NCBI RefSeq assembly: GCF_020381325.1
Contig: NZ_JAGSPI010000002.1
Span: 248,001 to 312,000 of the forward strand
DNA length: 64,000 bases
Direction of reading: 5' to 3'
Origin: Providencia vermicola
Lineage (GTDB): Bacteria; Pseudomonadota; Gammaproteobacteria; Enterobacterales; Enterobacteriaceae
How positions within the stretch are numbered: position 1 is the first letter of the stretch; each line of letters opens with the position of its first letter. Below the pieces are notes generated by a model. The model did no database searches. It had not been told where the DNA came from and saw only the letters and a list, made by a program, of their open reading frames with translations. Positions 9,047-56,757 of this stretch are shown one piece after another. The position numbers and the translations under genes were made by a program.

Positions 9047-9323
9047 CCAACAACGTCACCATTCGAAATATGATTCACATTAAATACTCTAAATAGTTCG
9101 AAGGGTGACTAGGCGGCAAGAGAGGATATCCCGGGGAGCATACACAAGTATGTGACTCGGGTAGCTGAACGCAGCCAACAACGTCACCATTCGAAATATG
9201 ATTCACCTTAAATACTCTAAATAGTTCGAAAGGTGACTAGGCGGCAAGAGAGGATATCCCGGGGAGCATACACAAGTATGTGACTCGGGTAGCTGAACGC
9301 AGCCAACAACGTCACCATTCGAA
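9047..9323. repeat. Tandem 128-bp repeat array (two full units plus an end fragment)
   Basis: Two 99-bp elements occupy 9097-9195 and 9225-9323, separated by a 29-bp spacer. The tail of a third element with the same spacer precedes them (9047-9096). Each element is bounded by TTCGAA(A/G)GGTGAC and its near inverse GTCACCATTCGAA. Each contains TAGGCGGCAAG near the left end, an inner palindrome CATACACAAGTATG, and GCAGCCAAC near the right end. The period is 128 bases, and I see only two differences between the complete copies. A relative lies at 55866-56041. Both sites lie directly downstream of a minus-strand stop codon and upstream of a terminator, so the repeats are probably transcribed as 3' UTR structure. 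Confidence 0.9.
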
Positions 9324-9335
9324 ATATGACGAGTA

Positions 9336-10676
9336 TTATTCCCCTGCAATACTCATTTCGGGGATCAACACAGAGCCACACTGAATATTACTGCGAGTTT
9401 CGATATCATCAGCAATAGTGACCATATTGGCCCACATATCTTTTAGATTACCTGCAATAGTGATTTCACTCACTGGGTATTGGATTTCGCCGTTTTCGAC
9501 CCAAAAGCCTGATGCACCACGTGAGTAATCCCCTGTAATGCCGCTCACACCTTGCCCCATTAACTCAGTAACGACTAAACCTGTTCCCATTTGTTTGAGC
9601 AATGCATCAAAAGAAAGCCCTTGCCCAGCGATACGCCAGTTATGAATTCCCCCCGCATGGCCTGTACTCTGTAAACCCAGTTTGCGAGCAGAATAACTGG
9701 TCATTAGCCACGTTTGTAGAACGCCATCTTCCACGATATTACGCTCAGTTGTGCGTACACCTTCGCTATCGAAGGGTGAAGAGGCTAAACCACCAATTAA
9801 ATGTGGCTGCTCATTAATGGTTAACCAGCTTGGTAAAATTTGTTTGCCAAGGCTGTCTAATAAAAAAGACGATTTACGGTAAATGCTGCTGCCGCTGATT
9901 GCCCCAACAAGGTGACCAAACAACCCTGTCGCCACTTCTGACGCAAAAATGACGGGGGCTTTCATCGTTGGCAGTTTTCTTGGGGATAGACGCGCTAACG
10001 TGCGGCGAGCGCATTCTTGACCCACCCACTCAGGGGATTTCAATGCATCCACACTGCGACCAATGGTGTAAGCGTAGTCACGCTCCATATCACCATTATG
10101 CTCTGCAATAACGCAGCTCGACATAGAATAACGGCTTGAACAATAGCTTTGCAGCATGCCATGGGAGTTCCCAAATACGCGCACACCGTAGTGACCGTTA
10201 AAACTACCACCCTCGGTATTCACAATACGCGAGTCCGCATTGAGCGCCGACATTTCAGCGATAGATGCTAAACGAATGGCTTCTTCAGGGGAGAGCGCTG
10301 TCGCTTGGAATAATTTAAGGTCAGGCGCTTCAAACGCCAGCAATGATTTTTCTGCTGGGCCCGCACAGGGGTCTTCAGAGGTATAATTTGCAATATCGAT
10401 AGCGGCTTGAACGGTACGCTCGATGGCCTCAGGGCTTAAGTCTGTTGACGATGCGCTTCCTTTACGCTGTTGGTGATAAACAGTGATTCCAAGGGCGCCA
10501 TCACTGTTAAATTCAACATTTTCAACTTCGCCTTGACGGGTACTAACGCTTATCCCTGTGCTTTTATTCACAGCCACTTCCGCGGCATCACAACGTGACT
10601 TTGCAAATTCTAATGCGTGCGCAACTGCATCTTCGAGTTTTTTACGTTGTTCTGTGACTTGTTCGGTTACACTCAT
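9336..10676 (-). CDS. pmbA: Metalloprotease TldE (PmbA) subunit
   Basis: PmbA (TldE) pairs with TldD to form a heterodimeric zinc protease that degrades unfolded or leader peptides. In E. coli it is needed for microcin B17 maturation and CcdA turnover. The 446-residue protein is the family length and shows the conserved [17 protein letters not shown]-terminal strand and a C-terminal half with [38 protein letters not shown] and TIAGNLKDM. TldE lacks the HExxxH site of TldD, and none is seen here. It is divergent from darP as in E. coli. Its partner tldD lies at 13793-15238, and the repeat array begins 12 bases past its stop. Confidence 0.95.
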
Positions 10677-11401: not shown

Positions 11402-11431
11402 TCGTTTTCCCCTATGCCTATTTTGGGCTAG

Positions 11432-11600
11432 GGGCTGTTTATCTTTGCTGCTGATTTTTACCGCTAAAAAGGCCAAAAAACAATTAAGACAATGATAAAT
11501 GTGTCAATCAAGATGACTGACTATTATCTACGTTAGCTATTGTGCTTAAACGCTGCCCTGCGGGTTCGATTAAAAATTGACCATCAAAGATAAACAGCCC
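11432..11600. mobile_element. MITE-like element, 169 bp, with 16-bp terminal inverted repeats and CTAG target duplication
   Basis: GGGCTGTTTATCTTTG at 11432-11447 and its exact inverse CAAAGATAAACAGCCC at 11585-11600 bound a 169-bp non-coding segment. CTAG stands immediately outside both ends (11428-11431 and 11601-11604), which reads as a four-base target duplication. IS5-group elements are known to prefer such targets, so a deletion derivative of an IS5-family element is plausible. No transposase fragment is seen. With the element removed, the flanks TTTTCCCCTA and TAGGGGAAAA would come together as a hairpin after darP. Confidence 0.75.
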
Positions 11601-11729
11601 CTAGGGGAAAATCCTAAAAAACACGCCTTCCATTGATAGCCCGCGTAAAGCCGCGTACTATTCGCCTGTTAGTCATACTCTGACCCGTATTATCGCGGCT
11701 GCTGAACCCCGATAAATCATGAGGAAGAT

Positions 11730-12919: not shown

Positions 12920-13207
12920 TCAGTTAGCACTTTTTGTTATATCTAACGCAAAAACAAATTCGTCTTCCCACATATCTTGTGCATCATTCATCACATCAAT
13001 GACATCGGCAAATTCGATGCGTTGTTCTGCACTCATATGGCTAAAAATAATGGTTACGGGAAGCTCAATGCCTGCAGAAACCATGTCCCACAAAGCATCG
13101 AGGTTATGACCAAACCAATCTGGAAGCGAAAATTGCTGAGCAAATTGCTGATAAAAATCATTCAGTGTGTTTATCTGACGAAAATCAAAGCTCACCTGTT
13201 TGCTCAT
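12920..13207 (-). CDS. Barstar family ribonuclease inhibitor
   Basis: Barstar-type proteins bind and block barnase-type RNases inside the cell. The 95-residue protein starting at 13207 (MSKQVSFDFRQINTLNDFYQ) has the barstar core: LPDWFGHNLDALWDMVSAGIELPVTI near residues 35-60, matching the inhibitor helix that inserts into barnase. AAAGGA precedes this ATG. An upstream in-frame ATG at 13264 would start inside the RNase gene and is not preferred. It follows the barnase gene by 13 bases on the same strand. Confidence 0.9.
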   Translation of the reverse strand: MSKQVSFDFRQINTLNDFYQQFAQQFSLPDWFGHNLDALWDMVSAGIELPVTIIFSHMSAEQRIEFADVIDVMNDAQDMWEDEFVFALDITKSAN

Positions 13208-13220
13208 CGCGATGCTTCCT

Positions 13221-13706
13221 TTAATTGACTTGTTTAAAGCTCTTATAATGGTCGTGGGTAACAAAAATCATCCCATCTGAAGAGTATAGCAAACGATCGG
13301 CCCCGCGGTGCCCACAACGATAGTTGATATCCGCTTCAAACCATTGGCGATTATCTGCGATAGGCAATGATTTTTCACGATTCGAAAAACGATCCCCCCC
13401 AATTGCTCGCCCTGGTAAGACATCGCAAAGATTGCCTTTTTTGGCATCCCAACCCGCTTGTCTTGCCTCTTTTTTTGTTAGATAAAATGCAGGAAGTTTT
13501 TGGTATTTCTGCATATAACTAACGACATTCTGTTGCTCAGTCAGTTGGTCAATAGTTTTAGGAAGGGCATTTTCTCGGGCGATTGTTTGTTCTGAAGTCG
13601 CTGGCTTGTCTGATTGTGGTTTATCTTGAACATCACCGCTACGAAAGTATAGGCTCAGTACAATCAAAACAGCCATCAACACCAGTGATATGACTCTTTT
13701 ATTCAT
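13221..13706 (-). CDS. Exported barnase-type ribonuclease
   Basis: This 161-residue protein has an N-terminal hydrophobic segment (about residues 5-22) that could be a signal peptide or anchor, a spacer, and a barnase domain. The domain shows GWDAKKGNLCDVLPGRAIGG and, near the end, FEADINYRCGHRGADRLLYS and THDHYKSF. Compared with Bacillus barnase, the catalytic Glu73 (in FEADINY), Arg83 and Arg87 (in HRGADR) and His102 (in THDHY) are all kept. It should therefore be an active guanyl-preferring RNase of the microbial RNase family. The barstar gene lies immediately downstream and would protect the producer. No secretion or contact-delivery domain is seen. Confidence 0.93.
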   Translation of the reverse strand: MNKRVISLVLMAVLIVLSLYFRSGDVQDKPQSDKPATSEQTIARENALPKTIDQLTEQQNVVSYMQKYQKLPAFYLTKKEARQAGWDAKKGNLCDVLPGRAIGGDRFSNREKSLPIADNRQWFEADINYRCGHRGADRLLYSSDGMIFVTHDHYKSFKQVN

Positions 13707-43682: not shown

Positions 43683-44932
43683 GAACGCACCTCCGTCACA
43701 TAATCTGTTTGACCATGTTGGCGACGTAAATGTTTCAAAATATATTGTGACTGGTAATAAGCATTACCTCGTCGGGAAAATTGGTAATATATTGCAACGC
43801 CTAAACCAATTGAAAAGCTTATCCCCAATAAAATGGTTGTTGTAACGCTAATATACATCCCCCCTGTATCTAGGATATTAACCCAATCCCAATAGTCCCA
43901 ATAATTGCCTTTTTCTATTGTTTCAGAAGTCGTCAGACCGACAGCAATAAGAACAAAGAAAATTAAAAGAAAGCAGGTAAATCCCCATAAGCCGAAATAA
44001 AAACCACGTTCTTGTGGAGCACCTCGGCCAATTAGGCTGTAGGCAAGCCCGTCTTGGTGATTATAGATGCCAAATATTGCCTGCTCATTTGAATGGTCTC
44101 GAATATTTTTATGGAGAACTTCGAGTTTATCCCCCTGTGCGATAAATAAGCTATGATTATTAAATAAAGGCTCATTTGCCGAAACCAAAACATCCATATG
44201 ACTTTTATTTATTTGTAAACTAATAAGGTTCAGTGCTTGTTCTGTGTCCCCTGCTTTAACAGTCAAACTTCGGTTATCCGTAATATTTACTTTGCCACAA
44301 GTCACCGATAATGATGTTTCATCCATGTTAACATCGACTGCCTTGCTTATTTTACTGGCCTTAGATGTTGCATTTTTAATACTATCAATCTCAATCAATG
44401 GGCTATGTTCATTAATTTTAAATCGCCCTTCTATGACGAGATCTAACGCGGTTAAAATTCGTTTTCTCCTCGGGCTCATAATGCGCTTCGTTTCGGCAAG
44501 CGCAAGGCCAAACAAAACAATACCACAAAAAGCGGCACAACCCAGAATTGCCACCAGCGCTATCATTAGAAAGCTATCTTCAGCAGCCATAAAGCAATAA
44601 TACACTACAGGGATTAAGGCCATTAACACGAGCGAAATGATATATTGCTTACCAAGAGAGCGTGTAAAACTCACATTTCTATCGGGCTCTAATCGACCAT
44701 GTTTTTCATGATAGACCCATTCTAACCAATAGCTGCCATCGTTCAGTTCTTCTGCACAAATAATCAAAGAGTCGCCTTCTTGTAGGCGCTCCAAAAAAAT
44801 CCTACTATTTTTAAAGTCATCTTGATTAAAGAAAAAAACCTTCCCTGACGCTATCAGCCTTGCCATACCAATTGGACTGACATTTTGATAATCACACTGA
44901 GTAAGATTGACATGGAAATATTGAACTCGCAT
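43679..44932 (-). CDS. Unrecognised polytopic membrane protein
   Basis: This 417-residue protein is not recognised. It has a soluble N-terminal part of about 90 residues (with WLEWVYHEKHGRLEPDRNVSF), two adjacent helices (about 97-118 and 123-147), a hydrophilic middle (about 150-315), and two more helices (about 318-340 and 358-385) before a basic tail. The arrangement recalls proteins with a DUF3592-like or YcgL-like membrane core, but I cannot assign one. It is coupled to the downstream propeller-like gene by a 4-base overlap. Together they look like a two-gene envelope module. Confidence 0.7.
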   Translation of the reverse strand: MRVQYFHVNLTQCDYQNVSPIGMARLIASGKVFFFNQDDFKNSRIFLERLQEGDSLIICAEELNDGSYWLEWVYHEKHGRLEPDRNVSFTRSLGKQYIISLVLMALIPVVYYCFMAAEDSFLMIALVAILGCAAFCGIVLFGLALAETKRIMSPRRKRILTALDLVIEGRFKINEHSPLIEIDSIKNATSKASKISKAVDVNMDETSLSVTCGKVNITDNRSLTVKAGDTEQALNLISLQINKSHMDVLVSANEPLFNNHSLFIAQGDKLEVLHKNIRDHSNEQAIFGIYNHQDGLAYSLIGRGAPQERGFYFGLWGFTCFLLIFFVLIAVGLTTSETIEKGNYWDYWDWVNILDTGGMYISVTTTILLGISFSIGLGVAIYYQFSRRGNAYYQSQYILKHLRRQHGQTDYVTEVRS

Positions 44933-55784: not shown

Positions 55785-55824
55785 AAAAAACAAAAACGGG
55801 CCATCTATATTCATAGATGACCCG
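55785..55824 (-). terminator. Terminator of the liv operon
   Basis: CGGGCCATCTAT (55797-55808) and ATAGATGACCCG (55813-55824) form a stem with one G-U pair and a four-base loop. On the minus strand a T-rich tail (TTTTTGTTTTTTT) follows. Read-through from livF would cross the repeat at 55866-56055 first. Confidence 0.85.
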
Positions 55825-55865
55825 ATAACCAAAAAAAGTGATTGATGACTTAATTTTCTAAATCA

Positions 55866-56055
55866 TTCGCGTTGTGGCTAGGCGGCAAGTGAAGCTAAGC
55901 CCTAGGAACATACACAAGTATGTGACTAGGGTTAGCGAGTGAAGCCAACACCGCCACAGCACGAAGGATGACGAAAATTGGGAGCATACACAAGTATGTG
56001 ACTAGAGTTAGCGAATGAAGCCAACACCGCCACAGCGCGAAGGATGACGAAAATT
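55866..56055. repeat. Second locus of the 3'-UTR repeat family (one full and one partial element)
   Basis: A complete 100-bp element (55866-55965) runs from TTCGCGTTGTGGC to GCCACAGCACGAA, with TAGGCGGCAAG, CATACACAAGTATG and GAAGCCAAC inside. A partial copy (55980-56041) repeats the right half with the same GGATGACGAAAATT tail (55966-55979 and 56042-56055), a 76-base period. It ends exactly at the livF stop codon. Core and layout match the array at 9047-9323 although outer arms differ. Confidence 0.85.
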
Positions 56056-56757
56056 TTAGCCACCGAGATAAGCGCTGCGTACTGCCTCATTAGCCAATAA
56101 CGCTTTCCCGCTATCTTCCAGCACTATGTGCCCATTTTCCAATACATACCCACGGTCAGCGAGTTTTAGGGCTTGATTCGCATTTTGCTCCACGAGGAAA
56201 ATTGTCATTCCCTCTTCTCGCAGCTGCAAGATAGTGTCAAATATCTGCATAATGATGATTGGCGCTAGCCCCAATGAAGGCTCATCCAGTAGCAACAATT
56301 CAGGTTGGCTCATCAATGCTCGTCCGATTGCCAACATCTGCTGCTCCCCACCAGACATCGTCCCTGAACGCTGAGTACGACGCTCATATAGCCTAGGGAA
56401 CAGCTTATACACTCGCTCAATGCGTTCTAGATACTGTTGGCGCGTGGCAAAAAAGCCGCCCATGGCAAGGTTTTCTTCCACAGTCATACGGGAAAAAACT
56501 CGTCGCCCCTCTGGTACAAGCGCAATATCTTCACGCATTATTTTTGAGGTCGGTAACTGAGTAATATCCACATCACGATACAATACTTGCCCTTCAGAAG
56601 CCCTTGGATCACCACAAAGCGTGCTTAAAAGCGTGGTTTTACCCGCCCCATTTGCCCCAATCAGGGTGACAATCTCCCCCTTTTGGATATTTAAGCTAAT
56701 CTCATGTAATGCTTGAATTTTCCCATAATGAGCAGAAACTTTTTTAAACTCTAACAT
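56056..56757 (-). CDS. livF: Branched-chain amino acid ABC transporter ATPase LivF
   Basis: LivF is one of the two ATPases of the high-affinity leucine/isoleucine/valine importer. The 233-residue protein shows Walker A GANGAGKTTLLSTLCG, signature MSGGEQQMLAIGRAL, and Walker B LLLLDEPSLGLAP. The typical LivF wording VPEGRRVFSRMTVEENL is present. Its start overlaps the livG stop by one base (TGATG). The repeat element begins right after its stop. Confidence 0.95.
   Translation of the reverse strand: MLEFKKVSAHYGKIQALHEISLNIQKGEIVTLIGANGAGKTTLLSTLCGDPRASEGQVLYRDVDITQLPTSKIMREDIALVPEGRRVFSRMTVEENLAMGGFFATRQQYLERIERVYKLFPRLYERRTQRSGTMSGGEQQMLAIGRALMSQPELLLLDEPSLGLAPIIIMQIFDTILQLREEGMTIFLVEQNANQALKLADRGYVLENGHIVLEDSGKALLANEAVRSAYLGG

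Follow-up and report, generated by a model that had tools for sequence, protein, structure and literature searches.

Orientation of ERIC elements follows the replication strand in Providencia: a copy adjoining the livF stop codon and its relatives

ERIC elements (IRU, RU-1) have been known since 1990-91 and are a common typing target; we know of no established mode by which they move. In Yersinia they reportedly overlap or adjoin stop codons when lying in one orientation and are found elsewhere when lying in the other. The papers PMC2229807, PMC2267715, PMC10969869, PMC3733652, PMC3049150, PMC3091717, PMC6267812 and PMC2759123 treat the element as a TA-ended MITE and deal with RNase E and with effects of orientation. 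Two of these (PMC2229807, PMC2759123) give the element as a 115-nt core with two 6-nt ends, 127 nt altogether. MITEPlu5 of Photorhabdus, an ERIC relative, appears in a section of PMC6267812 as a 123-bp element of high copy number and strong fold, for which a TA target duplication and a likeness to IS630 ends are reported; that section makes no mention of how the element is oriented to replication. The same paper reports 47 indels between Photorhabdus TT01 and DJC. REP/BIME sequences, as outlined in PMC3733652, are palindromic, of high copy number and mostly downstream of genes. Their units are 20-40 bp long and are associated with RAYT transposases. Of the pneumococcal BOX, RUP and SPRITE elements, 61-63% are placed on the leading strand, mirroring the genes, according to PMC3049150.

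The DNA analysed here is a 64,000-nt stretch of the Providencia vermicola genome (the window). The repeat lying 3′ of livF in this window was confirmed as one full copy followed by one partial copy, together spanning 55852-56055 (Table 1). An initial annotation had described a partially duplicated repeat at 55866-56055 that starts at the livF stop codon. Its right end and the duplication hold, position 56055 directly adjoining the stop codon TTA (56056-56058), whereas its left end has to be moved outwards by 14 nt. The two copies are 95% identical where they correspond (55981-56055 compared with 55905-55979), and copy 1 carries at 55973-55979 the same right arm GAAAATT as is found at the outer end. 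Together with the terminator-like hairpin, the stretch 55795-56058 folds far more strongly than shuffled controls, with z values of -7.6 and -8.6 for the two strands. Searching the window against Rfam gave 0 matches at gathering score.

The same repeat had also been claimed for the pmbA locus, and this proved right: TAGGCGGCAAG, CATACACAAGTATG and GCCAAC occur at both loci. A repeat search placed 55905-55979, 55981-56055, 9135-9209 and 9263-9337 in a single family of 75 nt, whose members are 71-100% identical to the reference copy; it also grouped 55852-55897 with 9083-9128 and 9211-9256. A 75-mer of one locus matches the other locus at 53 of 75 positions, whereas across 20 shuffled windows its best match without gaps was 38/75. 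The second pmbA copy ends in the right arm GAGTATT, which runs into the pmbA stop codon (9336-9338). In genome G018 the pmbA site carries no ERIC and has a different sequence from the stop codon onward; its flanks are too diverged for a target duplication to be read. Elsewhere in the window, 40-nt arms at 11420-11459 and 11573-11612, 83% complementary and 113 nt apart, possibly belong to another large hairpin element.

Table 1. Features of the livF and pmbA loci (window coordinates)
Feature	Position	Strand	Remark
ERIC copy 1 (livF)	55852..55979	+	128 nt; element '+' reads CTAAAT...ATGACG
Partial ERIC copy 2 (livF), 3′ part only	55980..56055	+	76 nt
Left terminal arm AATTTTC	55852..55858	+	7-bp boundary from family arm pairing
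Outermost right terminal arm GAAAATT	56049..56055	+	adjoins livF stop codon
Apical hairpin CATACACAAGTATG	55909..55922	+	within copy 1
livF (LivF, 233 aa)	56056..56757	-	NF008626 matched to its last position
Terminator-like hairpin	55797..55824	-	downstream of element in livF sense
ERIC at pmbA, first full copy of tandem pair	9083..9209	+	repeat search
ERIC at pmbA, second full copy	9211..9337	+	repeat search
Remnant, right part of further ERIC copy	9047..9078	+	by eye; also inside a repeat-search family
pmbA (446 aa)	9336..10676	-	NF008268 over 1-446 of 446

Judged by its sequence, the livF repeat is an ERIC (IRU/RU-1) element. Copy 1 is identical to the E. coli RU-1/ERIC consensus (PMC2759123) at 92 of 128 positions and the Providencia family consensus at 98/128, the maximum for shuffled ERIC being 72 in 300 trials. 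The family also has the build given for ERIC in the papers cited above: it is a long imperfect palindrome, mostly intergenic, with a 7-bp terminal inverted repeat beyond which pairing stops, and exactly 115 nt separate the conserved C and G in 69 of 120 full copies, that is, 127 nt in total. The likeness to REP/BIME units that had been suggested at first was not upheld. The sequences are unrelated, and REP/BIME and RAYT were rejected on this ground and because PF01797 (the Y1 transposase) was not found in the P. vermicola genome, the same search being positive in 5 of 14 control genomes.

Unlike the elements described as ERIC so far, those of this Providencia have terminal 7-mers that vary from locus to locus and rarely end in TA, yet are paired. 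All 7 positions are paired in 45 of 66 clusters and at least 6 in 59. Among the 66 left arms 45 are distinct, and there is no conserved terminal sequence. The arm as a plain copy of the target was considered and rejected, because arm positions 1, 2, 3 and 5 are constrained. TA is present at both ends in 7/66 copies of the P. vermicola genome, 1/14 of G018, 17/27 of Yersinia and 6/18 of Buttiauxella.

The family is dispersed, with 93 BLAST matches in the P. vermicola genome and 245 loose motif matches compared with 39 for the reversed control motif. Among the matches listed, ERIC was found in at least 21 of 24 Providencia genomes; a 22nd (G021) has 2 motif matches. The P. vermicola genome and P. 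rettgeri YPR31 are 85% identical over 7 kb, in keeping with the host genus. Further afield, 66 stretches with ERIC were collected in Providencia, Yersinia, Citrobacter, Buttiauxella, Dickeya, Serratia and others, and of 79 genomes sampled from the family, 34 had a motif match.

Tandem arrays are frequent in the P. vermicola genome, a further difference from ERIC as described. Of the loci at which both flanks could be located in G018, most are shared, in several cases with a different tandem copy number: 5 copies compared with 1 in G018 at L036:18259-18897 and at L071:7596-8405, and 3 compared with 6 at L039:11503-11858 (L numbers are our labels for stretches of the genome). These three arrays are possible typing markers. 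Among the same loci, four of which were read closely, none gave a cleanly empty counterpart of one recent copy. At L035 (about 13180-13330, contig C3) two ERIC remnants lack their cores between short ACTC repeats where G018 has three copies, which looks like a deletion across the hairpin.

ERIC copies are oriented by the replication strand, not by the adjacent gene. Clusters were called from matches to a central motif in which as many as 2-3 mismatches were allowed. In the P. vermicola genome the strand of the matches is nearly uniform within most contigs, and the sign of orientation is opposite to the local GC skew in 69 of 79 clusters (p=5.5e-12), a tally of orientation and gene context that keeps a few probable false in-gene matches such as that at 43695 of the window. 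With |skew|>0.02, 65 of 71 clusters are opposite. With a leading-strand gene on either side the element is antisense in 29/30 cases, and with a lagging-strand gene on either side it is sense in 9/10; the tandem contexts of G018 give 4/4 antisense and 2/2 sense, respectively. Stretch L036 (C3:203000-222999) has a local GC skew of 0.002 to 0.022, yet its ERICs are all '+', and skew alone therefore misjudges some copies. The three Providencia misfits of the fold comparison given below include one in this same stretch (L036:18813), where skew is near zero, and L077:16945, with 4 of 7 arm pairs, which is probably a false match.

Chromosomes assembled as a single contig allow the rule to be followed around the circle. 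A fitted two-block split, evaluated by permutation, accounts for 43 of 45 clusters in G002, 29 of 30 in G011 and, among the first 40 places listed, 19 of 19 in G014, and dif lies inside one strand switch in each of the three. In the P. vermicola genome dif is on contig C6, between '-' and '+' copies. When the split was placed from dif alone, without fitting, 46 of 48 clusters obeyed the rule in P. rettgeri YPR31, both misfits remaining misfits by local skew.

The same unfitted split in P. rettgeri PROV023 (G105) left 24 of 28 clusters in agreement, and all 4 misfits fall at 3.07-3.12 Mb. Around them, between about 2.99 and 3.19 Mb (about 2985000-3190000), GC skew has the reverse sign, and homology to contig C7 of the P. 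vermicola genome changes direction at both ends: the segment is an inversion of about 200 kb. Seven ERIC copies inside it still match the old strand. One '+' motif match, at 3051038, agrees with neither the old strand nor with what local skew would predict; its region is homologous to L044 of the P. vermicola genome, whose copy at 10186 also misfits. Because the inversion keeps old-strand copies, ERIC orientation is inherited and tracks the historical replication strand, and the persistence of the seven means that misoriented copies are not immediately lost. ERIC orientation is thus a marker of past inversions, flagging that of PROV023 just as GC skew does.

Buttiauxella and Yersinia follow the rule more loosely than Providencia. 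In Buttiauxella agrestis 42 of 51 clusters, from all listed places, fit a two-block split fitted in the same way (p=0.0015), and dif (3539485) falls within the switch 3414217/3661218. In Yersinia proxima the count was 38 of 53 (p=0.0022) over three contigs (C1, C4 and C10 only, some probable reverse-echo matches being left in), and the mean GC skew has the expected sign on each. One further genus (G049) gave 18/23, which is not significant (p=0.27). Because the stretches from Buttiauxella and the first 20 from Yersinia had been picked to include misoriented copies, the orientation tallies from these stretches (10/18 and 18/27, respectively) are biased and were left unused.

The position of the elements relative to genes is likewise one-sided. 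Of 66 full-length clusters, 24 have their right end at -3..+1 nt from the stop codon of the gene reading in, a count that becomes 40/94 with G018 and partial clusters added; the left end lies within 10 nt of a stop codon in 0/84 (1/66 with a slightly different choice of copies). Orthologous G000 and G018 loci were counted together in the tallies 0/84 and 40/94. Right ends at -3..+1 were found in 2/27 of the Yersinia sample and 4/18 in Buttiauxella, where left ends near stop codons lie at -14, -14 and +6 among 18. No TAG occurs among the 24 stop codons adjoined by ERIC (background 115/907, P=0.039). Clusters within -3..+12 of a stop codon obey the orientation rule in 29/29 cases (|skew|>0.02) and those away from stop codons in 26/29; because the latter obey too, stop-codon adjacency and the orientation rule are separate facts.

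Gene truncation as a cause of the adjacency was examined with NCBIfam models on 20 genes within -3..+5 of an element and was rejected. Eighteen genes had a match and 2 had none; 16 of the 18 were above cut-off and within 4 positions of the model end, as in LivF (237/237), PmbA (446/446), HemN (454/454), ErpA (115/115), SerB (323/324), CysS (465/466), GlnS (524/524) and Slt (644/644). The L074 transporter and the L036 LysR-type gene matched below cut-offs only.

These counts bear on the proposal, made from the livF and pmbA loci, of a family settled in 3′ untranslated regions in the order stop codon, repeat, terminator. Dispersal and a peak on one side of stop codons are borne out, whereas the facing of the element is set by replication and not by the gene. 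The terminator is present at livF on the minus strand (55824-55797), but as a rule it does not extend to the family: a strict detector called one after the element in 4 of 31 cases, and called none at pmbA either. Neither a random placement relative to genes nor arm changes that destroy pairing were encountered.

That the outer arms co-vary had been proposed from two loci and is now seen across the family: the stem, including the locus-variable 7-bp arm, was shown to be kept by double changes. In 51 non-redundant fixed-length copies, 94.4% of the 2193 cells of 43 stem pairs are paired. Double changes affect 33 of the 43 pairs compared with 24.4 in shuffles, and 405 cells compared with 124, a number reached by 0 of 500 shuffles. 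When partners are slid by one column, pairing falls to about 30%; at the ends, 7 positions pair at 63-88% before background is reached. Column pair 17/117 exchanges G.A for A.G (30 and 17 of 51), with no A.A or G.G. At the livF locus itself, followed across 8 species, 15 of 41 stem pairs have double changes, and the terminal types TTTTC, TACTC and TACGC occur each with its complement; the left arm has decayed in G005 and G006. Replacement of copies could also account for this locus, instead of change in place.

The fold is not equivalent on the two strands. Over the 43 pairs the '+' strand has 108 G.T and 22 A.C wobbles, 32 of the G.T coming from pair 24/110, and over the 39 pairs with at least 70% Watson-Crick pairing the numbers are 50 and 21. 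The G.T excess persists where the '-' strand is cotranscribed with both neighbours (33 compared with 12). Computed as DNA, the fold of '+' is the stronger in 65/66, 14/14, 27/27 and 18/18 copies of four genomes and in 48/53 of a larger Yersinia set. Combined with the orientation rule, this makes the better-folding strand the leading-strand template in nearly all cases, and its weaker partner the lagging-strand template. The base of the element carries a conserved internal loop, C-TAA-AT / AT-GAC-G (55858-55863 with 55968-55973), which we take to resemble the RNA UAA/GAN motif; such a likeness would favour an RNA role for the '+' strand.

To account for the pattern we lean, by a little, towards entry at the replication fork followed by upkeep of the stem, with an effect on livF mRNA included. 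A copy would enter the chromosome at the fork, where its orientation would be imposed, and selection or stem-copying repair would afterwards keep the hairpin paired. The livF mRNA would carry the opposite strand of the element, folded into a long hairpin that follows the stop codon at a distance of 0 nt. If Yersinia ERICs are a guide, terminating ribosomes would open the base of this hairpin, lowering the level of the upstream mRNA. A bolder form of this proposal, which we advance tentatively and consider rather unlikely, is that ERIC is not a passive IS630 MITE and spreads through a replication-coupled, folded '+' strand intermediate (RNA or single-stranded DNA), recognised by its structure, entered in a fixed relation to the fork and preferentially at stop codons of leading-strand genes. 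If so, the gene-relative orientation rule of Yersinia would be a shadow of replication.

Insertion may instead take place in both orientations, misoriented copies then being lost or selected against through a hairpin in the lagging-strand template; we see this as a real contender, with a probability clearly below even. Long single-stranded gaps on the lagging strand would let the better-folding strand form a hairpin, which would be cut or skipped. In its favour, '+' folds better in nearly all copies and the rule keeps '+' off the lagging-strand template, and ERIC cores are missing between short repeats at L035. Misoriented copies fold more weakly in Buttiauxella, whether assigned by local skew (-20.3, n=5, compared with -25.6, n=7; p=0.034) or by replichore (-21.7, n=5, compared with -24.6, n=13; p=0.10), a difference that loss of misoriented hairpins would explain just as well. 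In Providencia the values are -18.7 (n=3) and -26.5 (n=55; p=0.11), but two of these three misfits are the doubtful L077:16945 and L036:18813 discussed above, and in Yersinia the difference is small (-18.5 compared with -19.9, p=0.22). Yersinia copies with the canonical TATAC arm, presumably young, are no less biased than others (14/16 compared with 24/37; p=0.11, not significant). This contrast and the seven copies that persist in the PROV023 inversion, an event perhaps of too recent a date to be informative, were counted for insertion over loss, and a bias at insertion is the reading that we favour.

Two kinds of mobile machinery were considered as rivals. We judge it improbable that ERIC is a passive MITE moved at TA sites by an IS630/Tc1-type transposase, independently of replication. 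PMC2229807 and PMC6267812 describe ERIC and MITEPlu5 as having TA ends and resembling IS630, and more than half of the Yersinia copies have TA at both ends, but few P. vermicola copies do, the orientation rule is not predicted, and the IS630 DDE_3 domain (PF13358) was not found in the P. vermicola genome and is present in 1 of 24 Providencia genomes, a distribution unlike that of ERIC and a point of difference from MITEPlu5. An ancient or lost IS630-type source is possible. Single-strand transposition of the REP/RAYT or IS200/IS605 kind, with the folded strand entering the lagging-strand template, strikes us as very improbable. A hairpin element with a replication bias and no conserved terminal sequence would suit it, but a well-folding '+' strand acting in this way would be expected in the lagging-strand template and the opposite is observed, and Y1_Tnp was not found in the P. 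vermicola genome. Given the scarcity of DDE_3 in Providencia and this negative search for Y1, we know of no mobiliser here. Finally, we give hardly any credence to orientation as a by-product of transcription, whereby elements would be kept only when facing a stop codon as 3′UTR regulators and genes are mostly leading-strand: the adjacency to stop codons and the full agreement of near-stop clusters suit it, but it is already contradicted by the clusters off stop codons, which obey too, by the reversal of the element with respect to its gene where both neighbours are on the lagging strand, and by the genes themselves, only 483 of 826 being leading (343 lagging).

The literature, in a largely open-access search and in wider searches at the level of top-ranked titles, yielded no account of a replication-strand rule for ERIC. 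The Yersinia ERICs of De Gregorio 2005 were reportedly analysed with respect to genes. Here the direction of replication gives rise to the same pattern, and the rule offers a simple reason for the one in Yersinia. An orientation rule obeyed at about 95% in Providencia, together with covariation that identifies the strand whose fold is kept, reduces the number of possible ERIC mechanisms and is easily tested. Orientation relative to replication provides a new handle on how ERIC elements spread and are maintained.
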